Source: an uncultured Pelagibacteraceae bacterium (GTDB lineage: Bacteria > Pseudomonadota > Alphaproteobacteria > Pelagibacterales > Pelagibacteraceae). Taken from it: 13,856 bases of DNA. Both the position numbers and the translations under genes were made by a program. Of the stretch, positions 1 through 12,483 are shown in pieces (position 1 is the stretch's first letter; every line of letters starts with the position of its first letter). The stretch lies in the NCBI GenBank assembly GCA_913052435.1, contig CAJXDV010000019.1, positions 1-13,856 on the forward strand. The letters are read 5' to 3'. The notes under the pieces were generated by a model, which was not told the DNA's origin, did not search any database, and saw only the letters and a program-made list of their open reading frames with translations.

Positions 1-682
1 CATCACTTGCTAAATAAACGCCCAGTGAAGCAATTTCTTCAGGTTGACCCAAACGACCCATTGCCTGTCTGTTTATAAAATCAATTTTTGCTTGTTTGGG
101 ATCGTCAGCTTGAGACACTCTTCCCTCCCAAGAAGGTGTTTGTACGGTGCCTGGTAAGATCGCATTGCATCGTATCCCGTCTTTAACATAATCTGCTGCA
201 ACAGATTTTACAAATCCATTTAAGGCTGCCTTGGTTGTTCCATATATAAATCTATTAGGCGCACCCTTTACGTTAGAAGCAGCAGAAGAAACAATAATGA
301 TGCTGCCTTTTTTCTTCTTCAACATTTTTGGCAAAAGGTGTGTGGTCATCAAGTAGGCTGAATAGACATTAATGTTCATGGAATTATGAAATTCTTCTGA
401 AGAACAGTTCATTATGGTGCCATGGTGCACGAAACCAACTGCATGAAAAAGAACATCCATTACCTCCACGGAATTTGCGAATTTTACAACATCTTGTTTA
501 TTTGTTGCATCTAATTTCTGAATTTGAATCTCATTTTTTTCTTTTTTTAGCTCATTCAGTTTTTCTTCGTTAATGTCTAAAGCAAAAACATTAGCTCCTT
601 CATCAGCAAAAGCTAAGGCAGTGGCTCTGCCAATGCCCTGAGCGGCAGCAGTGACAACAATATTTTTATTTTTTAATCTCAT
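1..682 (-). CDS. SDR-family dehydrogenase, probable 2-keto-3-deoxy-L-fuconate dehydrogenase (C-terminus cut by window edge)
   Basis: A classical short-chain dehydrogenase, predicted to oxidise 2-keto-3-deoxy-L-fuconate to the 2,4-diketo acid with NAD in the cytoplasm. I translated 227 residues from ATG at 682; the family is about 245-250 long, so only some 20 C-terminal residues are missing. Visible features are TAAAQGIG (residues 11-18, nucleotide-binding loop with Ala for the usual first Gly), Asp36 in ALDIN after beta-2 (favours NAD), GFVHHGT (83-89), VSSAAS (131-136) with the catalytic Ser, Tyr147-x-x-x-Lys151, and LPGTVQTPS (176-184). TAAAQGIG, GFVHHGT and PGTVxTPS are the pattern of the DHRS6/BDH2 group, which includes bacterial fuconate-pathway dehydrogenases. 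At residues 80-81 His-Ala replaces the usual Asn-x-Ala of NNAG-like motifs. The start lies one base after the stop of the L-fuconate dehydratase, so the two are cotranscribed and act on consecutive intermediates. A 3-hydroxybutyrate dehydrogenase role is the main alternative. Confidence 0.85.
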   Translation of the reverse strand, partial: MRLKNKNIVVTAAAQGIGRATALAFADEGANVFALDINEEKLNELKKEKNEIQIQKLDATNKQDVVKFANSVEVMDVLFHAVGFVHHGTIMNCSSEEFHNSMNINVYSAYLMTTHLLPKMLKKKKGSIIIVSSAASNVKGAPNRFIYGTTKAALNGFVKSVAADYVKDGIRCNAILPGTVQTPSWEGRVSQADDPKQAKIDFINRQAMGRLGQPEEIASLGVYLASD

Positions 683-683
683 A

Positions 684-1985
684 CTAATTTAGCTTCGCCC
701 AATATTCACCTTTAGGGAAAAGATATCTATTAACAGACTCTTTCTTCATTTCAATAGAATACCCGTGGTCAAGAGGTGGCATATAATTGCCATTTTGAAT
801 ATTACATGGATATTTAAAATGTTCATGAAGGCTGTCTTGATATTCAACAACTTTATTGTCTTTTTCACCATTAATAAGAATATAGTCAATCATACATAAG
901 TGCTGGACATACTCACACAAACCAACCCCTCCAGCATGTGGAAAAACTGGAACCTTGAATTTATGAGCCATTAATAAAACAGTTAAAATCTCATTAATGC
1001 TTCCCAGTCTGCAGCTATCTATCTGACAAACATTCATAGCTCCTGACTCTAAAAATTGCTTAAACATTACCCTTCCTCCGCAAGCTTCTCCGGTAGCAAG
1101 ATTAATGTCTCCCACAGCTTCTTTAATTTTTTTAAAACCCAAAATATCATCTGGGCTTGTCGGTTCTTCCACGAAAAGTAAATTGAATTTCTTATATGCA
1201 TTTATATGTTTTATAGATTGTTCAACATCCCATAGTTGATTGGCGTCAACCATTATAAAACAGTCGTTACCAATCGTGTTTCTAATTATTTCCAATCTTT
1301 TGACATCTTGTTCTAAATTTAGACCAACTTTTATTTTGAAATGTTTCCACCCTTTTTCCATGTATTGTTTACAAAGATCAATTATTTTTTCATTGGAGTA
1401 ACCAAGCCAGCCCGCCGCAGTAGTATATGAAGGATACCCTTCTTTTAAAATTAAATTAATTCTTTCTTCTTTAAATTTTTGATTTTCTAATAATATTTCA
1501 TAAGCATCGTCTTTTGTCATTACATCTTCAATGTGTTTGAAAGTTAACCAACTCATTATCGTCTCAGGATCGCTTTCAACTACAAACTTCCAAAGAGGTT
1601 TCTTATTTTGTCTTGAAATCAAATCCCAAAAAGCATTAAAAATGGCGGCTACAGCCATGTGAACGACACCTTTTTCGGGACCAAGCCATCGAAGCTGGCT
1701 ATGATCTACGCAATCAAACCAAAGTTTACCGATATTTTTTTCTACTTCATTTAAGCTTAAGCCAATAAATAACGGAATATAATTTCTTACACATTCCGCT
1801 ACAATATCATTTCCCTTGCCTATAGTAAAAGCGATGCCAAAACCCCTTAAGTTGCTATCACTCGTATGTATTGTCACGTATGTTGCTGAATAATCAGGAT
1901 CAGTATGAACAGCATCGGAACCGGTTAAATCATTTGATGTTGGAAATCGGACATCATCAACGTTGATATTTAATATTTTAATCAT
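684..1985 (-). CDS. fucD: L-fuconate dehydratase (enolase superfamily)
   Basis: Predicted to dehydrate L-fuconate to 2-keto-3-deoxy-L-fuconate in the cytoplasm. At 433 residues it matches the long FucD/ENOSF1 family (about 440) rather than ordinary mandelate-racemase enzymes of 360-400. The N-terminal capping domain (about 1-140) carries FPTSNDLTGSDAVHTDPDYS-like residues at 14-33, typical of this family. In the barrel I see the K-x-K base motif (Lys217-Ile-Lys219), metal ligands Asp247 (VDANQ), Glu273 (FVEEP) and Glu300 (ATGEACGGR), and the Asp323/His350 dyad (QIDSCR, FPHAGGVGLCE). As I recall the Xanthomonas campestris enzyme, its metal ligands and dyad sit one position higher. The C-terminal PPLDHGYS and FPKGEYW also fit. 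All expected catalytic residues are present. It follows the other enolase-superfamily gene after a 59-bp gap and is followed one base later by the SDR for the next step. No Shine-Dalgarno is obvious before the ATG. Confidence 0.92.
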   Translation of the reverse strand: MIKILNINVDDVRFPTSNDLTGSDAVHTDPDYSATYVTIHTSDSNLRGFGIAFTIGKGNDIVAECVRNYIPLFIGLSLNEVEKNIGKLWFDCVDHSQLRWLGPEKGVVHMAVAAIFNAFWDLISRQNKKPLWKFVVESDPETIMSWLTFKHIEDVMTKDDAYEILLENQKFKEERINLILKEGYPSYTTAAGWLGYSNEKIIDLCKQYMEKGWKHFKIKVGLNLEQDVKRLEIIRNTIGNDCFIMVDANQLWDVEQSIKHINAYKKFNLLFVEEPTSPDDILGFKKIKEAVGDINLATGEACGGRVMFKQFLESGAMNVCQIDSCRLGSINEILTVLLMAHKFKVPVFPHAGGVGLCEYVQHLCMIDYILINGEKDNKVVEYQDSLHEHFKYPCNIQNGNYMPPLDHGYSIEMKKESVNRYLFPKGEYWAKLN

Positions 1986-2044: not shown

Positions 2045-3151
2045 TTATAATTTTTTAAAAGTTGAATTATCAATAAAATCCCAATCAAGATCAATTCCCA
2101 GACCGGGTTTGTCGGGCAGGTGAGCTCGCCCTCCTTCAACTTTTATGTCTTCTTTCAAGCCAAAATTAAAATATTCATAAGGTACTAGAACCTCAAAAAA
2201 TTCACTATTTTTTATGGCTGCACAACAATGCAAATTAACAAGTTCTAAAGGATGATAAATTGCCGTATGAATTTCACATTGAACGCCAAAGCTTTCGGCC
2301 AAATGAGCTGTTTTCATTGTGGCTGTAATACCACCGCTCCAAGAAACATCTGCTCTAACCATATCTACAACTCGAGTTGAAATACACTCTGCTACACTGT
2401 AGGGATGTTTAGCGATAACTTCTGTTCCTATTATAGGAATGTCCAGAATTCGCGTTAATTCCCTTAATCCATGAAAATTTTCATCAAACAGCGGTTCCTC
2501 ATACCAATAATAATTCAATTTTTCCAATTCACGACCAAAACGCAATGCCTCTTCAAAAGTATACGGTGCCACTGGATCACTCATTAATTTAAATTCATCA
2601 CCCACAGCTTTTCTAACAGCCTTGTGAGCCTCTAAATCAAAATCATAATTACCAGGGGGATGAAGTTTATAAGCATTGAAACCTCTTCTTTTATATTCAA
2701 GGGCTTCCTTTGCATAAGCTTCAGGACTTTTAAGAACTAAAGAACTTGCATAAATAGGAACGGCATCTCTATAAGCGCCTAAATATTTATAAAGAGGTTG
2801 TTCTGCTTTCAAAGCGGACAAAAGCCAGCAGTTTATATCAAAAGGACCGTAACTATAAATTGGCGCGTGATTCCACCAACGATCAGCCATGCGGTATTCA
2901 TGCCAGTGTTTTTCTCTATAAAGAGGGTCTTTGTTTAAAAAGAAAGGCTTAAAAATAGAATTTGCAATTTCCCCGGCCATTTCAGCTCCTCTTCCGGCAA
3001 AACCAAATGTTGATGCTGTTATGTCTTCATCAGTCTTAAAAGTAATAACTAAAAATTCTAAATTTGATTTATTACCATCTCGCATTTCGCTATTTTTCAT
3101 AACAGGCTGCTTATGACGACACATACGTATTTCAATATCTTTTATTTTCAT
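2045..3151 (-). CDS. Mandelate racemase/muconate lactonizing enzyme family protein with K-x-H motif, putative sugar-acid dehydratase
   Basis: A 368-residue enolase-superfamily protein with an N-terminal capping domain (about 1-125) and a TIM barrel (about 130-345). Likely chemistry is proton abstraction alpha to a carboxylate, giving dehydration or epimerisation of a sugar acid; the substrate is not identifiable. Metal ligands are Asp192 (LMSDPVAPY), Glu218 (WYEEP) and Glu244 (IIGTEV). The Asp268/His295 dyad of the mandelate racemase subgroup is intact (VRADVSWSGG, CEIHTAIYH). The second-strand motif, normally K-x-K, reads Lys162-Leu-His164 (AYKLHPPG), and the metal strand has SDP rather than DAN, so this is not a duplicate of the neighbouring L-fuconate dehydratase. 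It starts 3 bases after the CoA-transferase stop, within the MaoC/CaiB operon. Possible roles include dehydration of a second sugar acid or processing of a product made by the CoA module. Family confidence is high, substrate confidence low. Confidence 0.87.
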   Translation of the reverse strand: MKIKDIEIRMCRHKQPVMKNSEMRDGNKSNLEFLVITFKTDEDITASTFGFAGRGAEMAGEIANSIFKPFFLNKDPLYREKHWHEYRMADRWWNHAPIYSYGPFDINCWLLSALKAEQPLYKYLGAYRDAVPIYASSLVLKSPEAYAKEALEYKRRGFNAYKLHPPGNYDFDLEAHKAVRKAVGDEFKLMSDPVAPYTFEEALRFGRELEKLNYYWYEEPLFDENFHGLRELTRILDIPIIGTEVIAKHPYSVAECISTRVVDMVRADVSWSGGITATMKTAHLAESFGVQCEIHTAIYHPLELVNLHCCAAIKNSEFFEVLVPYEYFNFGLKEDIKVEGGRAHLPDKPGLGIDLDWDFIDNSTFKKL

Positions 3152-3154
3152 ATT

Positions 3155-4312
3155 CTATAAAGAAAACTCCTTTATGATTTGCTCTGTATGTTGTCCAATT
3201 AGAGGTGCTGCTATTTCAGATTTTAGTATGTCATTATTGAATCTAATTGGACATCGTAATGTTTCAATATCCAATCCATCGAATCTTTTTATATGTTGCA
3301 ACATATCAATAACTTTAAATCCTTCATGTTCAATCATCCTATCCCATTCTAAAACTTCCGAACACCAAACATCAGCAGGCTGTAATATATCTAACCAATA
3401 TTGGGTTGTGTTAGTAGCAATAAAATCACCGATTAATTTTTTTATTTCATCTCTTTTAATAAACCAGTCTTCTTGCTTAGTATATTTTTGAATTGATTCT
3501 AGATTTAACAGTTCGCCTAACTTTGGAACAGGCGTCATAGAAATAGCTATATAACCATCACTTGTTTTATAGATCCCATATGGTGCGGCAAGATATGCAT
3601 GAGCATTATTGTAATTACTTCTTTTGGGTTTTTTTTTACCGTTATTTAAATAAGTCGTTAGAACTTCGAATTGGAAATCTAGCATTGCTTCTATGAGGCT
3701 AGTTTGGACATGACTTCCTTCTCCTGTTTTTAAAACTTTAAACAGTGCTGACACTAGTCCTTGAACCAAAAAATGTCCTGCGAACATATCTGCAACGGCT
3801 AAGCCCATAGGGGTTGGCGCCCCATCTCCGTTTCCGTTTAACCACACAATTCCTGACCTAGATTGTGCTAATAAATCTTGACCAGGAAGATCTCTCCAAG
3901 GACCTTTATCTCCGTAACCAGTAATTGATCCATAGACTATTTTTGAATTAATTTTTTTTACATTATCATAATCTAAACCTATCCGTTCAATTACTCCTGG
4001 TCTGAAATTTTGAGTAATAATGTCAGCCTTTGTGATAAGATTTTTTATTCTTTCTAAGTCAGAAGGATTTTTTAAATCTGCTACAAAACTTTCCTTATTG
4101 CGATTAATTGCATGGAACAAACTATTATCACCACTTAAGTTTGTATCACTTAAATATATGTATCTGCAGAGATCGCCTACTTCAGGTTTTTCAATTTTTA
4201 TTACTCTTGCACCTAAATCTGACATGCGTAACCCTGCAACAGGTCCAGCTAAAAATTGACTGAATTCAAGGACAACAACTCCCTCAAGCGGTCTTTTAAT
4301 TTTATTAACCAT
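3155..4312 (-). CDS. CaiB/BaiF (class III) family CoA-transferase
   Basis: Predicted to move CoA between an acyl-CoA donor and a free carboxylic acid through an aspartyl-CoA anhydride intermediate; such enzymes form interlocked dimers in the cytoplasm. The protein has 385 residues, a normal length. Seen in sequence: N-terminal PLEGVVVLEFSQFLAGP (8-24) and DLGARVIKIEKPEVGD (32-47), NFRPGV (102-107), SITGYGDKGPW (129-139), catalytic Asp146 in PGQDLLAQ, DMFAGHFLVQGL (175-186), GEGSHVQTSLIEAMLD (197-212) and a C-terminal GQHTEQII. The start codon overlaps the stop of the upstream binding-protein-like gene by one base (TAATG), implying translational coupling, and the stop is 3 bases before the next enolase-superfamily gene. 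Position beside two MaoC proteins indicates that it activates an organic acid as a CoA thioester for hydration or dehydration. Acceptor and donor (for example succinyl-CoA) cannot be determined. Confidence 0.92.
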   Translation of the reverse strand: MVNKIKRPLEGVVVLEFSQFLAGPVAGLRMSDLGARVIKIEKPEVGDLCRYIYLSDTNLSGDNSLFHAINRNKESFVADLKNPSDLERIKNLITKADIITQNFRPGVIERIGLDYDNVKKINSKIVYGSITGYGDKGPWRDLPGQDLLAQSRSGIVWLNGNGDGAPTPMGLAVADMFAGHFLVQGLVSALFKVLKTGEGSHVQTSLIEAMLDFQFEVLTTYLNNGKKKPKRSNYNNAHAYLAAPYGIYKTSDGYIAISMTPVPKLGELLNLESIQKYTKQEDWFIKRDEIKKLIGDFIATNTTQYWLDILQPADVWCSEVLEWDRMIEHEGFKVIDMLQHIKRFDGLDIETLRCPIRFNNDILKSEIAAPLIGQHTEQIIKEFSL

Positions 4313-5442
4313 TATATAAAACTTTTTTTAAATTCGTGATTTAGTTTATCGTATATATCTTTCTCATTAAAATTATTTTTTAGAAAATCGTTAATAATAT
4401 CTCCGGCAAGATCTTGAAATTTCATATATCCATTATGTCTTGGTCTTATCCAGGCTCCCTCTAAAGTATCTCTCGTACCAGAGAAAAAATTATTAGTTTC
4501 TTTGTTGATTATCTTATCTTCCCAAGCTACAGCGTTACCAGGTTGCCCTCCATTCTTGTAATAAATATTTTTTTGGCAATCTGAACTTGCCACCCAAAGC
4601 GCGTATTCAAAAGCCTCCTCTTTAAAAGAACTTGTTTTTGAAACTGCAATGCCCGTTCCGCCCAGTTGAGTTCCAACTGGTCCATTACCTTTTAAATCCA
4701 TTACATTGGAGAACTGTAAAACATTTTTTTTAAAACCATTCCTTGAATAATTAGAAAAACCATAAATATAAGGACAATAGAATATATCATTATTTTCTGC
4801 CATATACTCACACGTCTGAATTGGATCCATTTGTAAACATTCATTGGGTAAATGCTTAACAATTTCTTTCATCATCATTAATGTTCTAATTGTTGTTTCT
4901 TTATTTACAAATTCCCTTAAGTTAGAATTAAAAGGTTTGTCGATGTTGTTACAAATACTATAAAAACTGCTGATTGCATGTATTGGTTTTAACGGCCAAA
5001 GTATTTTTTTATTTTTTGCTAATTCAACTAACTCATTCCAAGATGAAGGTAAAAAATTAATTAAATCCTTTCTAAATACAGAAACTTGTGTTGCTGCATC
5101 TATTGCTAAAGCCCACTGATGATCATTAATAAAATAGCTTTGATGGGAATTACCAACGCTTTCTTTCTTAAGTTTTGAAAGTTGGTCGAAATATTGAGGT
5201 TTATCAAAATAATCCAACAAACCATTAACTGCTACTTCCCCTACATGAGGGTGATCAATTACTATTAAATCATAATCTTCAGTCATTTCTTCAATTGGTC
5301 TGTCAGCAAAAGCTTGGAGCGGTCTTTTGTCCCAAGTTATACTAGTAAAATTATTATGTTTTTTTTTAAAAGATTCACTAGTTGCAACCATAGGATCAAA
5401 TCCTCTAGGATGATCCCAGGTCATTCCCTTTAAAGTAACCAT
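4312..5442 (-). CDS. Solute-binding-protein-like protein (family 1) lacking a signal peptide, predicted cytosolic
   Basis: A 376-residue protein resembling family 1 extracellular solute-binding proteins. It shows an early strand GMTWDHPRGFDP (6-17), TWDKRPLQAF (36-45), YDLIVIDHPHVG (57-68), an SSWNELVELAK segment (133-143), LGGTGIAVSK (260-269) and a C-terminal segment of the SGTRDTLEGAWIRPRHNGY kind (321-339). There is no signal peptide, lipobox or membrane helix. A longer N-terminus is impossible because the codon immediately before the ATG is the in-frame TAA stop of the MaoC-like gene. It is fixed in an operon between that MaoC gene (zero gap) and the CoA-transferase (1-base overlap), not with the ABC transporter. 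I recall similar signal-less proteins annotated as ABC substrate-binding proteins beside CaiB and MaoC genes, but know of no assigned function. It may bind a CoA-module substrate in the cytoplasm or serve as a sensor; this is speculative. Confidence 0.78.
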   Translation of the reverse strand: MVTLKGMTWDHPRGFDPMVATSESFKKKHNNFTSITWDKRPLQAFADRPIEEMTEDYDLIVIDHPHVGEVAVNGLLDYFDKPQYFDQLSKLKKESVGNSHQSYFINDHQWALAIDAATQVSVFRKDLINFLPSSWNELVELAKNKKILWPLKPIHAISSFYSICNNIDKPFNSNLREFVNKETTIRTLMMMKEIVKHLPNECLQMDPIQTCEYMAENNDIFYCPYIYGFSNYSRNGFKKNVLQFSNVMDLKGNGPVGTQLGGTGIAVSKTSSFKEEAFEYALWVASSDCQKNIYYKNGGQPGNAVAWEDKIINKETNNFFSGTRDTLEGAWIRPRHNGYMKFQDLAGDIINDFLKNNFNEKDIYDKLNHEFKKSFI

Positions 5443-6000
5443 TTATTTTTTTATAATTTGATCTTTAAATTTTTCTCGTTCCTTATAAAGAACAGAATGT
5501 AAATGCTCACAATATAAAACTATTTCACCCTCGCCTTTAAATACTTCATAGCTAGTTCGGACAAGTCCCATTTTTTCATATTTTGGAGTTTTTTCCATAT
5601 TGGTTCTTATCGTATAAATAGTTTCTCCGATAAAAACTGGCTTAATAAATCTTAAACGATCATAACCATAGCTAAAAGAATTCACACAATTAGTTGCTAC
5701 TAAACCAAGACCGTATGAAAATACCATTGCTCCTGCTACTAATCGTTTATTAAACATTCCTTCTTCCTTGGCAAAAATTTCGTCACCAACATAAGGGTGC
5801 ATATCTAAAACCATGCAATTAAATTGCATAGATTCGCCTTCAGAAATTGTTCTTCTAACCGAGCGAATTTTATGACCAATAATAACATCTTCATAAAACC
5901 AATTTTCAGAATTCCATACTGGAATTTCACTATGTTCTTTTGGCATACTTTTAGGATTGGTTGTTTCAATGCCCACTGTAGGTTTGTGTTTGCTATTCAT
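5443..6000 (-). CDS. MaoC-like hot-dog protein with degenerate active site
   Basis: A 185-residue single hot-dog-domain protein of the MaoC dehydratase/enoyl-CoA hydratase family. The first 35 or so residues are polar and probably disordered; the domain starts at [10 protein letters not shown] (33-42). The hydratase motif, usually D-x-x-P-x-H followed by an acidic turn, reads Asp66-Met-His-Pro-Tyr-Val71-Gly-Asp73. The Asp is kept, but the catalytic His position is Val71, with a His instead at position 68. [17 protein letters not shown] (112-128) closely parallels GFERLRFPNPVFIGDTI in the divergent MaoC gene, so the two are homologous. In paired MaoC systems such as ChsH1-ChsH2 of actinobacterial steroid degradation, one subunit lacks the catalytic residues, so this may be the non-catalytic partner. 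It is first in its operon, and the next gene starts directly after its TAA. No Shine-Dalgarno precedes the ATG; Met19 is an alternative start. Confidence 0.88.
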
Positions 6001-6053: not shown

Positions 6054-6500
6054 ATGGCTGAAATAGAACTTTATTTTGAGGATTACAAACTAGGAGACGA
6101 AAGGACCACTTTAGGCAGGACAATTACAGAAACCGATATAGTAATGCATGCTATGCACTCAGGAGATTTTTATCCTCATCATGTAGATGCTGAATTTGCA
6201 AAAAAAGGGCCTTTTGGCCAAAGGATAGCACAATTCAGTTGCACTTTTTCAATTGGAATAGCTTTAACTGCTGAAGTTGTGAATAAAAGAGCTTTCACGT
6301 ATGGATTTGAAAGATTACGTTTTCCTAATCCTGTATTTATTGGAGATACAATTCACACCAAGGTAACAATTAAAGAAAAAAAAGATGATCCAAAAAGACC
6401 GCAATATGGACAAGTTGTTGAGGCTTGTGAAATTATAAATCAGAATGACAAAGTTGTTTGCTATTCAGAACATATTTTATTAGTAGAAAGAAAAAAATAA
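6054..6500 (+). CDS. MaoC family dehydratase (catalytically intact)
   Basis: A 148-residue single-domain hot-dog protein, the typical length for R-specific enoyl-CoA hydratases and related MaoC dehydratases, acting on CoA thioesters in the cytoplasm. The active-site motif is intact: SGDFYPHHVDAEFA (36-49), with Asp38 and His43 in the D-x4-H spacing of the family. GPFGQRIAQFSCTFSIGIAL (52-71) covers the substrate-tunnel helix and strand, and GFERLRFPNPVFIGDTIHT (84-102) is the conserved strand after it. The protein closes with SEHILLVERKK. It is the only plus-strand gene in the central block. It diverges from the MaoC-like gene with a degraded motif and ends 6 bases from the stop of the convergent RraA gene. 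The natural reading is that the two MaoC proteins form a heteromer with this one as catalytic subunit; a stand-alone homodimer is equally allowed by sequence. The substrate is unknown, probably a small hydroxyacyl- or methyl-branched acyl-CoA. Confidence 0.92.
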   Translation: MAEIELYFEDYKLGDERTTLGRTITETDIVMHAMHSGDFYPHHVDAEFAKKGPFGQRIAQFSCTFSIGIALTAEVVNKRAFTYGFERLRFPNPVFIGDTIHTKVTIKEKKDDPKRPQYGQVVEACEIINQNDKVVCYSEHILLVERKK

Positions 6501-6506
6501 TAAAAT

Positions 6507-7160
6507 TTAAAATACACTAAATTTAATATAAGCTTCCTGCGGATCCATACCTTCTCTAATTGCTTTTCTAATTTCACTTTCAGTTGCAATAAGTTTTTCA
6601 GATTTTAGGAGTATATCCTCAGCTTTATCTTCAGGAATAATAACAACTCCATCAATATCTGCCATTACATAATCATCGTTGTTAATACTTGCATCTCCAA
6701 TCTTAATGGTTTCCTCTATCTTTGTTGGAGACCAATAAGCAACTACATCTCGGGGAGTATAAAAATTACACCAAACCGGAAAATCAATATTAAGAATAAA
6801 TTCCAAATCTCTACAACCCCCTTCTATTATACATCCTCTTATCCCTTTATTTTGTAAAGTTTCTGCAGAAAGTTCTCCCATTAAAGCTATTTCCTGATTA
6901 TTAGGTTGGCAAATAATTACTTTATCCTTTGGTGCCTTTGATAAAAACCCGGTCCAAGCTAGTAAACTTTCATGATGCGTAAGTTTATTATTGATTTCTC
7001 CTTCAATAGTAAAAATCTGTCCACTAATTTTATAATTTTTTTTTGTGGGAGTTATTGAAGATGGTAAAGTAAAACTCTTCAATCCCTCATCTCTCATAAC
7101 ATCATGGATTACACTGCTAAAACATTTTTGAAGACGATCTGCAATTTCAACTTTATTCAT
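6507..7160 (-). CDS. RraA/HMG-aldolase family protein (probable 2-keto acid aldolase or decarboxylase)
   Basis: A 217-residue protein of the RraA-like, 4-hydroxy-4-methyl-2-oxoglutarate (HMG/CHA) aldolase family. These are divalent-metal class II pyruvate aldolases, which also decarboxylate oxaloacetate. The family signature G-E-x20-R-D is exactly present: Gly95-Glu96 (LMGELSAET) and Arg117-Asp118 (GGCRDLEFI), binding metal and pyruvate. VMADIDGVVIIP (165-176) and the C-terminal IREGMDPQEAYIKF (201-214) also fit; this C-terminus is found in the aldolases and is longer than in the RNase E inhibitor RraA (about 160 residues), so the aldolase reading is preferred. It is last in the transporter operon, its ATG overlapping the ATPase stop by 4 bases (ATGA), and ends 6 bases from the convergent MaoC gene with no terminator visible between them. 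It could cleave a 2-keto-3-deoxy or 4-hydroxy-2-keto acid from the imported sugar into pyruvate plus an aldehyde or keto acid; that is inference. Confidence 0.88.
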   Translation of the reverse strand: MNKVEIADRLQKCFSSVIHDVMRDEGLKSFTLPSSITPTKKNYKISGQIFTIEGEINNKLTHHESLLAWTGFLSKAPKDKVIICQPNNQEIALMGELSAETLQNKGIRGCIIEGGCRDLEFILNIDFPVWCNFYTPRDVVAYWSPTKIEETIKIGDASINNDDYVMADIDGVVIIPEDKAEDILLKSEKLIATESEIRKAIREGMDPQEAYIKFSVF

Positions 7161-8251
7161 TTGATAATTTTTTTAGTTTCATTATCAAAAATATGAATTT
7201 TATTGAGATTTACTGCAAAGTTAATTTGTTCTCCAATTTCAATTTCTCTTGGATTATACATTCTACTGATAATTTCTTTATTTTTTAGTTTTATAAATAA
7301 CTGGGTTTCGGTTCCAAGTGGTTCAGCTAAATCTATATTTTTTTCAAAATACCAAAATTCGTCAGAAGTATTTGAATTTGAAGGAGATATATCCTCAGAT
7401 CTAATTCCTATAATAACTTTATTTTTTTGAGACAGAAGGCTCGCTTTTGATTCAGGACATGGCATTAATACATCTTGATCTAGTTCAAAATATATTTTTC
7501 CATCCCTTTTTATAATTTCTGCTTCCAAAATGTTCATTGGAGGACTTCCAATAAAAGTAGCTACAAATACATTAATAGGATTATTAAAAACTTCTATTGG
7601 AGAACCAATCTGTTCAATGTATCCATCCTTCATAATAATAATTCTGTCTGCTAGTGTCATTGCCTCTACTTGATCATGAGTAACATAAATAATAGTTGTT
7701 TGTAATTTTTGGTGAAGTTTTTTGATTTCTGTCCTCATCTGAGTTCTAAGTTTTGCATCTAAATTAGATAATGGCTCATCAAAGAGAAATGCATCTGGGC
7801 GCCTAACTATAGCTCTTCCCATAGCAACTCTTTGTCTTTGACCACCGGAAAGTTGAGAAGGTTTTCGTTTTTGTAATTCATCTAAACCAAGGATTTGAAC
7901 AGCTTCTTTAACTCTTTGCTCAATTTCCTTCTTATCAACTTTAGCAATTTTTAAACTAAATCCTAGATTTTCTTTAACTGTCATATGGGGATAAAGAGCA
8001 TAATTTTGAAATACCATTGATACATTTCGATCTTTTGGATCTTTTTCATTAACTAATTGATCTCCAATGTATATTTCTCCACTAGTAATTTCCTCTAAAC
8101 CTGCAATCATTCTTAATGTAGTTGACTTCCCACATCCTGATGGTCCTACTAAAACAAGAAATTCATTATGAGGGATGTTCAAATCCATATTTTGAACTGC
8201 AATCACATCACCATATTTTTTTGTTAGATTCTTTAAATCTACATTTGCCAT
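7157..8251 (-). CDS. CUT1 sugar ABC transporter ATP-binding protein (MalK/UgpC type)
   Basis: The ATPase energising the importer encoded upstream, acting as a homodimer on the cytoplasmic face of the membrane. It has 364 residues, the normal MalK/UgpC length. Seen: Walker A GPSGCGKST (36-44), Q-loop Gln82 (MVFQNYALYPHM), signature LSGGQRQR (134-141), Walker B FLFDEP (155-160), D-loop SNLDAK (162-167), switch His192 (VTHDQVEAM), and a C-terminal TOBE/regulatory domain (about 240-364) with IGIRSEDI (281-288) and PLGTET (311-316). All nucleotide-binding residues are intact. It begins one base after the stop of the permease gene, with AAAGGA just upstream of the ATG, and its stop overlaps the RraA start (ATGA). 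The substrate cannot be inferred from the ATPase, because this subunit is often promiscuous. Automatic annotation would probably call it UgpC, but no glycerol-3-phosphate link is implied. Confidence 0.96.
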   Translation of the reverse strand: MANVDLKNLTKKYGDVIAVQNMDLNIPHNEFLVLVGPSGCGKSTTLRMIAGLEEITSGEIYIGDQLVNEKDPKDRNVSMVFQNYALYPHMTVKENLGFSLKIAKVDKKEIEQRVKEAVQILGLDELQKRKPSQLSGGQRQRVAMGRAIVRRPDAFLFDEPLSNLDAKLRTQMRTEIKKLHQKLQTTIIYVTHDQVEAMTLADRIIIMKDGYIEQIGSPIEVFNNPINVFVATFIGSPPMNILEAEIIKRDGKIYFELDQDVLMPCPESKASLLSQKNKVIIGIRSEDISPSNSNTSDEFWYFEKNIDLAEPLGTETQLFIKLKNKEIISRMYNPREIEIGEQINFAVNLNKIHIFDNETKKIIK

Positions 8252-8252
8252 T

Positions 8253-9092
8253 TTATCCTTTTACTCCTCCAAAAGTTAGGCCAGATACTAAATGTTTTTG
8301 AACCATAAATGTTATTATAATCGCAGGAACAATCATTACTACAGCAATAGCACACATACCTGCCCAATTAATCGTAAATTCATCGAGATAATCCATCATT
8401 CCTATGGGCAAAGTTTTTGACTCAATGGTCCTGGTTAAAACTGAAGCTAATGCATACTCATTCCAGGAGAGCAAAAAAGCAAAAATTGCTGCAGCTCCGA
8501 TTCCTGGACCGGCAAGAGGTAATTCTATATTCCAAAAAGCTTGAAATCTTGTGCAGCCATCTGTTCTAGCTACTTCAGACATTTCCTTTGGTATCTGTCT
8601 AAAAAAACCATCAGTTAACCATATTGTGAAAGGAACATTCATAGCCACATAAACAATTATAACTCCAATGGAGGTGTTTATAATTCCAAGCTTAGCAAAA
8701 AGAATAAATAGAGGTAAACTTAAAGAAATTCCAGGTACCGCTCTTGCAAGCATTAGTCCAAGGAAAATTTTGTTTTTACCTTTAAAATTAAATCTAGCAA
8801 AAGCATATCCGCCCATCATACCTATTGTTATTGCAATTATTGTGCTAAAAAAAGAAATAATAATTGAATTCATTAAATACTTAAAAGCAGGAACGGAAAC
8901 GTAACCTTTAATACTAAACATTTGTGTAAACTCAAATATTGTCCATCTATCTGGTATCCAATTAGCAGGTTTTGATAATATTTCAGGATTAGGACGAAAT
9001 GCACTTACAAAAATCCAAATTCCTGGCAAGCAAACTAATAGTAAAATAAATAAAACTAAAAACCAAAACCCAATTTTTTTTATTTGTTTCAT
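8253..9092 (-). CDS. Sugar ABC transporter permease, MalG type
   Basis: The second inner-membrane permease of the importer, 279 residues. It has an N-terminal membrane segment (about 8-32) and further hydrophobic segments at about 72-100, 108-135, 140-158, 196-215 and 243-265, giving the six helices typical of MalG-like proteins. The EAA loop that docks on the ATPase is at 173-197 (EVARTDGC, then FWNIELPLAGPG). The C-terminal LVSGLTFGGVKG (268-279) is a hallmark of this subfamily. Its start overlaps the stop of the other permease by one base (TAATG), and the ATPase begins one base after its stop, so the three are almost certainly translated together. Confidence 0.95.
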   Translation of the reverse strand: MKQIKKIGFWFLVLFILLLVCLPGIWIFVSAFRPNPEILSKPANWIPDRWTIFEFTQMFSIKGYVSVPAFKYLMNSIIISFFSTIIAITIGMMGGYAFARFNFKGKNKIFLGLMLARAVPGISLSLPLFILFAKLGIINTSIGVIIVYVAMNVPFTIWLTDGFFRQIPKEMSEVARTDGCTRFQAFWNIELPLAGPGIGAAAIFAFLLSWNEYALASVLTRTIESKTLPIGMMDYLDEFTINWAGMCAIAVVMIVPAIIITFMVQKHLVSGLTFGGVKG

Positions 9093-9982
9093 TATTGTTG
9101 CCCTAATTCTCTTCTAGCTGCTACAAGTTTAGTAAAGAAGTAATAGGTAAAAGCTATAGATAAAATAATTGATACATATGACATCGCATTAGCAAAACCC
9201 ATATTCGCATCTTTGTAACCTACCCTTGCAATCATAGTCCAAATTAATTCTGTTCTCATTGCAGGGCCTCCACCAGTCATAATGTGAACAATGTCATATG
9301 CTCTTCCAACATCAAGAGACCTAATTGTTAGGGCTATAAATATAAATGGCATTAAAAAAGGAAGGGTAATGTTTTTAAATACTTGCCAACTATTACAACC
9401 GTCTACTCGTGCCGCTTCAATTGGATCTCTTGGAATGCCTAAAAGCCCTGCTAATAATAATATGGAAAATATGGCTGTATTTGCCCAAATTTCAGCAGCC
9501 ATAATTGATCCCATTGCAAGTTTTTTACCAATAAGCCATGGTATTGCAGACTCATACCCGAAGAGATATAAAAAATTATTTAGTAAACCAATATTATCAT
9601 TAAAGATGTATTTCCATTGAAAGCCGACCAAAATTGGTGAGAACATCATTGGAAACATCATTATGGTTCTTAATGTTCTTTGACCCCATGTTATTTTATT
9701 AATCAAAAGTGCGATGCCTAGTCCAAACAACAATTCTAAATTTAAAACTATTGCTAAGAATAAAATAGTTCTTCCGAAAGCTTTCCAGAATTTTACATTA
9801 TCAATTAATCGCTCATAATTTCTTAAACCTACAAAATTATAAAGACTGTCAGGACGTGTCAATTTATAAGAAGTAAAACTCGTATAAAAAGAAAATATTA
9901 GAGGGATAATTATTACAAAACCAATTGCTAATATAGATGGAAGAATTAAAATAATCGGACTGCTGAGAAATTTTCTATTCAT
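9092..9982 (-). CDS. Sugar ABC transporter permease, MalF type
   Basis: The first inner-membrane permease, 296 residues. It is a short MalF-like protein lacking the large periplasmic insertion of E. coli MalF, as usual for CUT1 transporters of environmental bacteria. Membrane segments lie at about 9-32, 70-96, 106-125, 157-182, 208-220 and 266-285. The EAA loop is at 189-213 (EAARVDGC, then FKNITLPFLMPF). Periplasmic-side FVGLRNYERL (50-59) and MTGGGPAMRTELI (235-247) are conserved family landmarks. Its ATG follows the stop of the Gfo/Idh gene with no gap (TAAATG), so an oxidoreductase is inserted between the binding protein and the permeases in what is otherwise a standard transporter order. 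Confidence 0.95.
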   Translation of the reverse strand: MNRKFLSSPIILILPSILAIGFVIIIPLIFSFYTSFTSYKLTRPDSLYNFVGLRNYERLIDNVKFWKAFGRTILFLAIVLNLELLFGLGIALLINKITWGQRTLRTIMMFPMMFSPILVGFQWKYIFNDNIGLLNNFLYLFGYESAIPWLIGKKLAMGSIMAAEIWANTAIFSILLLAGLLGIPRDPIEAARVDGCNSWQVFKNITLPFLMPFIFIALTIRSLDVGRAYDIVHIMTGGGPAMRTELIWTMIARVGYKDANMGFANAMSYVSIILSIAFTYYFFTKLVAARRELGQQ

Positions 9983-11065
9983 TTAATCAGCGTAACTTAT
10001 CTGTAATCCCCCTGACTGACTTGATATTCCACAAGAATCAACAACCGCCATTGTGTCAATAGAGTCATCTATAGATGTAATGAGTTTTTCATCTTCGTCG
10101 TTTTTAAATCTTTGCATATTAGACATGACACCAATAAACGCATCGGGAAACCATTTGCCTTTTATATCAATTTTGATCCAATCGGTATTTTCGGTAATGA
10201 TTTCTAATTCTTCAGGTTCTCCATTCGGGTAATCTAATAAAAGCCCTAGTTTCATTTTTGCGGCACCCTTGATGCCTTCCAATCTAATATATGCATCTTG
10301 ATTTTTTCTTCCAAAACTATGTGTGTGATTTATGGTCATGCAGCATCGCACTTGATCGCCATAATTAAATATGGCGCTTGTCCGACAATCTGCTAAATCT
10401 TTCACTTTAGGATGTTTTACAGATTGACAATACAAGCTTTTTGGATTTCCTAATACAGAGCGTATCCAATCAATATAGTGGATTGAATGAAGTGGTACTT
10501 CAACGCGGTCTAATGTTTTTAGAAAAGGCCATAACTCCCAAGGAGTATGAACATTTACATGAACTTCAAGCTCCACTAATTCACCTAGAAGATTTTTTTG
10601 AATAGCTTCATAGACGGGTAGCATAATCGGACTAAATCGTAATTGAAAATTCATACATGCTTTTATATTTTTTCTATGGCAGATTTTTCTTATTTCATTA
10701 CCTTCTTGCAAAGTTCTTCCAAGCGGTTTTTGAAAAATCGCATAAATATTTTCAGGGAGCTTTTCTACAACTTCCAAGAGTTTTGCTGGGGGTAAAGCTA
10801 AATCAAACACACAATCTTTATCTTCAAATGCTTCTTCAAAAGAACTGAAAACTGTGTTGATCTTATATTCTTTAGCCAGCAAGTCAGCCTTATCTTTGTC
10901 AACATCGTATAACCCAGCTACATCAAAACCTGCTTTATTATATGCTGGCAAATGAGCATCTTTAACAATTCCGCCTGTCCCTATAATTATAATTGGACTA
11001 GTTTTGCTTGGTATTGGCCAAGTTTGGCTTAAATTTTTTATTAATGTCTCTTGATCACTCATCAT
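9983..11065 (-). CDS. Gfo/Idh/MocA family oxidoreductase
   Basis: A 360-residue NAD(P)-dependent sugar dehydrogenase or oxidoreductase, predicted cytosolic. The Rossmann domain has IIIIGTGGIVKDAHLPAY (25-42; the usual GxGxxG reads GTGGIV), YDVDKDKA (53-60) with Asp54 near the ribose site, and LALPPAKLLEV (89-99). The lysine motif EKPLG is altered to Gln112-Lys113-Pro114-Leu-Gly, keeping the key Lys. In the C-terminal domain, HSIHYIDWIR (193-202) supplies the H-x-x-H-x-x-D pattern often catalytic in this family. An extra stretch of about 22 polar residues precedes the Rossmann fold; two adjacent ATGs (11065 and 11062) begin it, and no good Shine-Dalgarno is visible. It lies between the binding protein and the permeases, separated from the former by a strong hairpin, so it should act on the imported sugar. 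It could be the missing L-fucose or related sugar 1-dehydrogenase, or an inositol/aldose dehydrogenase. Confidence 0.9.
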   Translation of the reverse strand: MMSDQETLIKNLSQTWPIPSKTSPIIIIGTGGIVKDAHLPAYNKAGFDVAGLYDVDKDKADLLAKEYKINTVFSSFEEAFEDKDCVFDLALPPAKLLEVVEKLPENIYAIFQKPLGRTLQEGNEIRKICHRKNIKACMNFQLRFSPIMLPVYEAIQKNLLGELVELEVHVNVHTPWELWPFLKTLDRVEVPLHSIHYIDWIRSVLGNPKSLYCQSVKHPKVKDLADCRTSAIFNYGDQVRCCMTINHTHSFGRKNQDAYIRLEGIKGAAKMKLGLLLDYPNGEPEELEIITENTDWIKIDIKGKWFPDAFIGVMSNMQRFKNDEDEKLITSIDDSIDTMAVVDSCGISSQSGGLQISYAD

Positions 11066-11130: not shown

Positions 11131-12483
11131 TTAATAATAACCAGCGTCTTGCATTAATAAGTCAGTTTCTTTGGCTGCAGCATCCAGCGCTTCCTTAACT
11201 GTTTTATCACCCACAATTGCTGCCTGCAACTCAGGGAAAATAATATTTGAAAAAGGAATCCATTCAGGAATCAGTGGTGGCGTGAATGCATCTTCTGCCA
11301 TTGAAGCTTTAAATGTAGAGAAAAGATTACTCATAAATGCATTTCCTTCTGCATCCATTTCATTAGCAATATCATCCCAAACTCTGGTCATTGTTGGAAG
11401 TTTACCTCCTCTTGCTTCATGCATTTGTGCTTCATGATTGGTTAGTATCCATATTAATGAAGCGGCAGCGTCTAGGTTTTCTTCAGGACAGCCGTTAAGA
11501 ATTGAATAGGTGTGAGAGCCTGACCAGCCACCTCTTTTTCCACCCGATCCCAAAGGAAATCTAACAAGTCCTACGTCTCCACCAATTTTAGAGTCAGCAC
11601 TGTTAAAATAAGCGCCCCATCCACCCCAGTCAAGGTTGAGAGCAACTGTTCCGCTAGCAAATCCAAGACCAGTTTCATCCCATAGATAGTTTAATACTCC
11701 TGCTGGTACGGCTTTTGCATTATATAAATCAACAAACCATTGAAGAGCTCTTTGCCCTGCTTCATCATTAAAAGTTGGATGCCATCCATCATCAAACAAA
11801 GCGCCGCCTTCAGCAATTACTAATTCATAAAAACGACCTGTAATAGCCTCTTCTTTACCAACATATTGTGTTCCATAAAAATTTGGCGGATCAGACCAAA
11901 AGATTGCTTGCTCTTTCCATTGATCCAACGTTTCTGGTGGCGCTAAATCATAACCATGTTCAGCTTTAAATTTTTTCTTATTGTCTGCATCCTCATAGAT
12001 GCTTTTTATATACCAAAGGTTGCTCACATCACTGTGTTGAGGAAGTTGAACAAGTCGTCCTTCAACTGTTGAGTGATCAAGTACAAGTGGTACAAATTCT
12101 GCAAGATAATCACCAGGAATAATTCCATTTAGATCTCTATAAATATCACCATATTGTGTTGCAAAACTAGTGTGGTTAGAAACAACGCAATAACTAATAT
12201 TACCTGCTGCAATATCTTGTTTTATTTCTTTATCTAACTCAAAGTGACTTTTCTTTGATAAGATTTTAACTTTACCTCCCGTTTTTTCTTCCCAGACAGG
12301 TATCATTTCTTGATAAAGTGGATCATATGGCGCTCCACCTATAAGTTTAACATCCAAAGTAATTCCACTATAATCTCCCCACATAGTTACTTTGTCATTT
12401 GGAAAACTTGTATCCACAGCCAAAGCTCCAAAAGAAAAAGAAAAAGTGGAAATAACTAATAAAATATTTTTAATTATTTTCAT
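11131..12483 (-). CDS. Secreted sugar-binding protein of the ABC transporter (family 1, CUT1)
   Basis: The periplasmic high-affinity receptor that delivers substrate to the two permeases encoded downstream. It has 450 residues. A clear Sec signal peptide covers 1-22: MKIIKN, a hydrophobic core, and ALA before VDTSF, which fits signal peptidase I with no lipobox Cys. The mature protein has family 1 features: PLYQEMIPVWEEKTGGKV (55-72), a segment FYELVIAEGGALFDDGW (218-234), FASGTVALNLDWGGWGAYF (about 275-293) with several aromatics suited to sugar stacking, and a C-terminal helical region. It is first in its operon and has the best ribosome-binding site in the window, so it should be abundant. 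A following hairpin probably raises its expression over the other subunits. Its ligand is not determinable by eye; the surrounding L-fucose-type catabolic genes favour fucose or a similar deoxy sugar. It is clearly different from the signal-less homologue at 4312-5442. Confidence 0.94.
   Translation of the reverse strand: MKIIKNILLVISTFSFSFGALAVDTSFPNDKVTMWGDYSGITLDVKLIGGAPYDPLYQEMIPVWEEKTGGKVKILSKKSHFELDKEIKQDIAAGNISYCVVSNHTSFATQYGDIYRDLNGIIPGDYLAEFVPLVLDHSTVEGRLVQLPQHSDVSNLWYIKSIYEDADNKKKFKAEHGYDLAPPETLDQWKEQAIFWSDPPNFYGTQYVGKEEAITGRFYELVIAEGGALFDDGWHPTFNDEAGQRALQWFVDLYNAKAVPAGVLNYLWDETGLGFASGTVALNLDWGGWGAYFNSADSKIGGDVGLVRFPLGSGGKRGGWSGSHTYSILNGCPEENLDAAASLIWILTNHEAQMHEARGGKLPTMTRVWDDIANEMDAEGNAFMSNLFSTFKASMAEDAFTPPLIPEWIPFSNIIFPELQAAIVGDKTVKEALDAAAKETDLLMQDAGYY

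Follow-up and report, generated by a model that had tools for sequence, protein, structure and literature searches.

The stretch of DNA analysed here (the window, 13,856 nucleotides), which is assigned to an uncultured Pelagibacteraceae bacterium (contig CAJXDV010000019.1 of assembly GCA_913052435.1), encodes a homologue of MalE-type sugar-binding proteins without a signal peptide, referred to as cSBP, whose gene overlaps that of a class III CoA-transferase (CaiB). We propose that cSBP is a cytosolic descendant of a MalE-type binding protein that serves the CaiB step in the breakdown of sugar acids, a reading to which we assign a probability of about 0.46. It builds on the absence of an export signal, the predicted fold, the boundaries of the family, the linkage to CaiB genes and the existence of cSBP-CaiB fusions. 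The features of the window are listed in Table 1.

Table 1 Features of the window, with positions counted from its first nucleotide.
Feature	Position	Strand	Evidence
SDR dehydrogenase, runs off the window	2..682	-	domain search, translation
MLE1, L-fuconate-dehydratase-like enzyme	684..1985	-	sequence comparison
MLE2, enolase-superfamily sugar-acid dehydratase or related enzyme	2045..3151	-	sequence comparison
CaiB, class III CoA-transferase, 385 aa; most constant partner of cSBP	3155..4312	-	Pfam, synteny
Junction TAATG: one-base overlap of cSBP stop and CaiB start	4310..4314	-	sequence
cSBP, MalE-type binding-protein homologue without signal peptide, 376 aa, ATG start	4312..5442	-	ORF, Pfam, predicted fold
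cSBP family signature LKGMTWDHPRG, residues 4-14, start of fold	5401..5433	-	alignment
Junction TAA/ATG: MaoC1 stop directly 5' of cSBP start, same frame	5440..5445	-	sequence
MaoC1, MaoC-like hotdog protein	5443..6000	-	Pfam, alignment
MaoC2, MaoC-like hydratase, intact D....H motif	6054..6500	+	Pfam, alignment
RraA-like aldolase/decarboxylase family protein	6507..7160	-	domain search
ABC ATPase and two permeases of sugar importer	7157..9982	-	translations; syntenic in relatives
GFO/IDH/MocA oxidoreductase	9983..11065	-	domain search
pSBP, secreted receptor of importer, SBP_bac_1, signal-peptide-like N-terminus	11131..12483	-	Pfam, translation

The initial annotation had described an open reading frame with zero gap to a MaoC-like gene and a one-base overlap with CaiB, and both junctions are found in the sequence: the MaoC1 stop codon lies at 5445-5443 and the cSBP ATG begins at 5442 in the same frame, while base 4312 is common to the cSBP stop (4314-4312) and the CaiB ATG (TAATG). 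Since this in-frame stop adjoins the ATG, an N-terminal extension of cSBP is impossible, in agreement with the claim that there is no room for a signal peptide. The claimed likeness to sugar-binding proteins holds as well, given a Pfam match to SBP_bac_8 (29.0 bits, just over the cut-off of 27) and the predicted MalE fold, and so does the existence of a separate secreted receptor (pSBP), which has an SBP_bac_1 domain and a signal-peptide-like N-terminus. A search of NCBIfam found no family that covers cSBP.

The lack of an export signal extends to the relatives of cSBP. In the 27 nearest loci (L004-L030), an in-frame stop is located 1-9 codons upstream of the cSBP start, and in less closely related members the open frame before the start extends over 0 to 458 codons. 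A crude signal-peptide test, applied to all possible cSBP starts as far as the signature, flagged 1/80 members in the genome-contig set, 0/10 on plasmids and 1/24 in a sample of the phylum (2/114 overall). Both flags are false, as the flagged starts sit at the signature itself. In L132, an upstream reading has moderate hydrophobicity (12-residue mean of 1.79) and was not flagged. The same test flagged 54 of 61 secreted receptors from cSBP-bearing operons. As controls, 20 ordinary binding proteins of the phylum sample were selected by hand from the upper part of its list of ordinary matches; 19 were flagged, and the twentieth is signal-peptide-like by eye. Judged from its N-termini, the cSBP family is without an export signal and thus lacks the signal peptide or lipobox that marks a MalE-type receptor. 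To the question whether homologues generally carry signal peptides, the answer among those examined is therefore no, which favours the initial annotation.

At E ≤ 0.001, a database search with cSBP returned 4574 homologues, of which the 120 listed are 60-91% identical and 370-378 aa long. Among 397 Pseudomonadota genomes sampled across the phylum, 77 have some match to cSBP; 25 of the matches, in 21 genomes (the window's included), are full-length and score 335-603 bits, the next match has 39.7 bits, and from there down the matches are ordinary binding proteins. With two score groups separated by such a wide gap, cSBP forms a discrete family at the level of sequence. Of 386 sampled genomes of the class, 10, again including the window's, have members at E ≤ 1e-40. 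In a plasmid collection, 145 records match, all at less than 60% identity, among them records of Sinorhizobium, Azospirillum, Streptomyces, Variovorax and the Bacteroidota genus Persicobacter; 40 of the 145 were listed and 10 opened, two of these without annotation. A search of phage records gave no match. The most distant member (L176/L182) is 26% identical, and its gene is followed by CaiB and crotonase genes. The genome-contig set used below consists of the best 80 of 170 loci; as similarity to the window was the criterion of choice, it contains many near relatives, and it overlaps in species with the plasmid and phylum sets.

Three loci that hold cSBP also encode a second binding-protein homologue, seemingly without signal peptide, beside a CaiB or GFO oxidoreductase gene (L086:11445-12674, L130:13538-14719 and L131:13498-14661). 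The one in L086 begins with MKEKLRIAIRKFGPFESAI and matches SBP_bac_1 with 84.5 bits. These proteins possibly represent another cytosolic family.

The CaiB protein of the window matches CoA_transf_3 (PF02515) with 318 bits and contains the stretch GLAVADMFAG, corresponding to the conserved G...xD..xG, whose Asp we take to have a functional role in CaiB; the stretch is kept in 106 of the 111 CaiB proteins encoded in the loci. The nearest marine relatives are largely syntenic, with the gene order receptor, two permeases, ATPase, RraA, MaoC2 (on the opposite strand), MaoC1, cSBP, CaiB, MLE2, MLE1 and SDR. Counted from aligned gene edges, CaiB is located within 72 bases of cSBP on the same strand in 78/80 loci of the genome-contig set, the exceptions being one in which the contig ends (L033) and one without CaiB (L049). 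On plasmids, the distance is at most 111 bases in 9 of the 10 loci, and the tenth (L090) lacks CaiB over 17 kb. Among the phylum-sample members, CaiB is found within 82 bases in 19/24; it is one gene off in L104 and 6.4 kb off in L125-L127, and L137 has none in 15 kb. Eight further members from the class sample divide into three with adjacent CaiB (L169, L170 and L176) and five without (L171-L175). For most of the cSBP family, the partner is CaiB. Around the 20 ordinary binding proteins (7.3-8.6 kb each), a permease was found in 20/20 cases and CaiB in none. Tandem CaiB genes occur beside cSBP in L086, L132 and L133.

The five class-sample members without adjacent CaiB belong to an outer branch. 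Wider stretches around them (L177-L181, 8.8-15.1 kb) are free of CaiB, MaoC and crotonase genes in 5/5 cases, and their signature is a variant of that of the family (GLTWDHRRA or GLTWDHPRA). Their neighbours include sugar-acid dehydratases (MR_MLE, UxuA), FAA hydrolase, amidohydrolase, IclR and importers of other classes; several of the ORFs were called by a rough script, and in L179, where cSBP is on the minus strand, the neighbours are nearby rather than in the same operon. What runs through the whole family is thus sugar-acid catabolism. In a tree of 54 chosen members, in which the long branches L176, L090, L128 and P0212 are placed unsurely, the CaiB-adjacency label needs three changes, so that CaiB linkage does not correspond to one clade. 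Tree distances (mirror-tree) of cSBP correlate with those of all seven operon genes compared (0.78-0.88) and do not single out CaiB, with 0.865 for CaiB versus 0.875 for the ABC ATPase.

The other genes around the pair are less constant. The order flips among loci between cSBP-CaiB and CaiB-cSBP, with the ends touching or overlapping, and the hydratase slot is occupied by MaoC in most close relatives and by crotonase in some Sinorhizobium loci as well as in the Variovorax and Azospirillum loci. Likewise, the transporter is an importer of the window type or another kind of sugar-ABC importer (the two being CUT1 and CUT2 in our naming), or else a RhaT symporter, and some loci have SBP_bac_5 or Peripla_BP_4 receptors. 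The coupling to CoA chemistry that had been read from the operon is thus upheld for CaiB, by synteny and by the fusions described below; for MaoC it is weaker, as crotonase may take its place, the order may change and the outer branch has neither.

For the fusion search, a query of cSBP joined to CaiB was used with length limits barring single cSBPs, which gave 234 proteins. Among the 120 listed of these 234, four carry both domains (P0209, P0211, P0212 and P0214), all known from database ORFs alone, and 26 match CaiB once. The remaining 90 had the appearance of reversed fusions and turned out to be CaiB-CaiB doubles by Pfam (4 of them) and blastp (all 120). These doubles include P0121, P0126, P0137 and P0190, and several are named from Hymenobacter. 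P0209 and P0211 are 79% identical to each other, contain a complete binding-protein domain with a short, clean junction and form one clade in the tree, next to Persicobacter and two phylum-sample members. The junctions of P0212 and P0214 are irregular and may be artefacts of sequencing frameshifts. In an AF2 model of P0211, based on an alignment of 42 rows of which only 4 are fusions and with CaiB modelled as a monomer, both domains are mostly of high confidence and are connected by a disordered linker (375-379); the pTM is 0.57, meaning that the cSBP and CaiB domains are not confidently docked and that no interface can be claimed.

These data bear on the most conventional interpretation, namely that cSBP is an ordinary receptor of the ABC importer whose start was mis-called or whose signal peptide was lost. 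The Pfam assignment to SBP_bac_8, the importer genes in the same operon and the public annotation as substrate-binding protein would all fit. We nevertheless consider it highly improbable, because the in-frame stop adjoins the start, signal peptides are absent family-wide, the importer already has pSBP as its secreted receptor and cSBP occurs fused to a CoA enzyme. Moreover, transporter and gene order change while the cSBP-CaiB pair stays, which is not the behaviour of a receptor tracking its transporter. Homologues do often share an operon with permeases, but the window's importer has its own secreted receptor.

The predicted model of cSBP has the two-lobed, MalE-class periplasmic-binding fold across the whole chain, with 16-18% identity to T. 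maritima MalE3 and the T. litoralis trehalose/maltose-binding protein. Together with the missing signal peptide, this predicted fold supports the suggestion of the initial annotation that a periplasmic-binding fold works in the cytoplasm. The roles it put forward for such a protein, as substrate chaperone, allosteric subunit or sensor, are conjectural. An alignment of 34 cSBP sequences, the most divergent being 29% identical to that of the window, contains 36 invariant columns, including W9, H11, R13 and G14 of the signature as well as W37, D63, D115, Y227, Q300 and R333. In the periplasmic-binding fold, the loops after strand ends line the cleft. Twenty-two of the 36 invariant residues are located at a strand end or at most 6 residues after it, compared to 30% of all residues, a pattern expected for cleft loops. 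In a profile alignment to 1eu8, D63 is matched by Asp and R333 by Arg, and the cSBP family has GGT, GGA or GGC in place of GGW; we take these positions of 1eu8 to be ligand contacts. From these alignments, the cSBP cleft seems to be under strong constraint yet changed in kind. Of 12 operon genes compared across 29 marine loci (L004-L030, L064 and L073), cSBP is on average the least identical to its counterpart in the window (61%, compared to 65% for the ABC ATPase, 66% for GFO, 70% for CaiB, 89% for MLE2 and 90% for MaoC2), although its cleft residues are invariant.

The main rival of our proposal is that cSBP is itself an enzyme derived from a binding protein, acting on a sugar acid or CoA thioester, for example by dehydration, isomerisation or hydrolysis, beside CaiB. 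It owes this rank to the charged residues that stay invariant across differing partners and to the outer branch without CaiB or hydratase. Charged and aromatic residues, many of them post-strand (W9, H11, R13, D63, D115, Y227, Q300 and R333), are conserved regardless of the partner, and the outer branch, situated near genes for sugar-acid dehydratases and FAA hydrolases, retains the signature. As PMC7683729 documents, such a change of function can occur: cyclohexadienyl dehydratase is an enzyme that arose from a binding protein. On the other hand, cSBP contains no known catalytic motif, its identity among relatives is below that of the operon's other enzymes, and no enzyme derived from a binding protein (MqnA/D, Thi5 or cyclohexadienyl dehydratase) appeared among the matches listed, 50 in each of two fold comparisons. 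We regard a catalytic cSBP as quite possible, at rather less than even odds.

The remaining genes point to the pathway in which the proposed cSBP-CaiB step would take place. MLE1 matches L-fuconate dehydratase with 449 bits and human ENOSF1 with 493 bits, and MLE2 is nearer to other enolase-superfamily proteins. An L-fuconate-dehydratase-like MLE1 is present in the operon with mutarotase-like, SDR and RraA genes, and genes for SDR, mutarotase, amidohydrolase or FAA hydrolase are found in related loci. The probable substrate of the operon is L-fucose or a relative, degraded by the oxidative route. In MaoC1, the position of the catalytic His is occupied by Val in 77/77 sequences (window included), with the Asp kept and D-x-H-P-Y-V-x-D invariant, whereas MaoC2 keeps both residues of D....H in 79/79 sequences (window included); Asp and His presumably both act in MaoC catalysis. 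From these motifs, MaoC1 and MaoC2 probably pair as hotdog subunits, of which one is active and the other altered. According to our proposal, cSBP would work with CaiB in the non-phosphorylative breakdown of a deoxy-sugar or sugar acid. It would close on the polyhydroxy carboxylate of the pathway, or on its CoA-bound form, and either hand the acid over to CaiB or hold it for CaiB in physical contact, after which a hydratase (the MaoC pair or crotonase) would act.

Binding proteins are natural ligand switches, and cSBP could instead be a cytosolic sensor whose ligand-bound form regulates CaiB, the importer (by trans-inhibition) or a transcription factor. Besides this established property of binding proteins, the low identity of cSBP relative to the operon would suit a part in which specificity is tuned, and IclR or LacI regulators are found near cSBP in several loci. 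We think this unlikely, since the regulators are separate genes and sometimes absent, the fusion to CaiB favours direct action at the CoA step, and a dedicated inhibitor of the importer is improbable where the importer type varies or is replaced by a symporter. 

A bolder reading, which we put forward tentatively and with more doubt than conviction, is an undescribed class of cytosolic enzymes or enzyme subunits derived from binding proteins, through which CaiB-type transferases would load CoA onto sugar acids. Sugar-acid catabolism would then have a CoA-dependent branch with cSBP, CaiB and a hydratase as one functional unit, the first two at times being one polypeptide.

The origin of the contig deserves a comment. 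Its GC content is 33.2%, compared to 24.5-30.7% in seven further stretches of this assembly, and in tetranucleotide profile the contig resembles the marine loci L004, L009 and L037 more closely than it does any of the seven. Full-length cSBP was found in 0/36 genomes of the same genus, two of which have partial matches (E about 9e-4), and the listed contamination of the assembly is 4.99%. A transferred island or a binning error may account for the contig, and either would leave the cSBP finding unaffected.

Public records label members of the cSBP family as extracellular or ABC-transporter substrate-binding proteins. This label assigns them to the wrong compartment, and receptors for uptake are overcounted in marine and rhizobial genomes as a result. 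That cSBP is paired with CaiB, and at times fused to it, is indicative of CoA chemistry acting on sugar acids. Among the papers that a search of the openly licensed PMC literature returned, none describes the cSBP family, a CaiB-linked binding protein or such CoA chemistry. With its large natural alignment, the family offers a test case for a MalE-type protein turned to intracellular metabolism.

Several known systems resemble the one described here in part. The oxidative L-fucose and L-fuconate pathways share with it the likeness of MLE1 and, in related loci, SDR, mutarotase, amidohydrolase or FAA hydrolase; the classical oxidative L-fucose pathway includes, to our knowledge, no CaiB, MaoC or cytosolic binding protein. 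MqnA/MqnD and Thi5/NMT1 are enzymes that evolved from binding proteins and, like cyclohexadienyl dehydratase and cSBP, put the binding-protein fold to a metabolic use other than import. All of these enzymes belong to other branches of the fold, and we know of no link between them and CaiB. In benzylsuccinate CoA-transferase, the partner is a second CaiB, whereas the partner here has a binding-protein fold. That enzyme (PDB 9fn0, assigned by molecule name) is, as in our loci, of the CaiB type and accompanied by a partner. With the MalE-type sugar-binding proteins (SBP_bac_1/SBP_bac_8), finally, cSBP has the fold in common, and it differs from them in being without an export signal and paired with CaiB.
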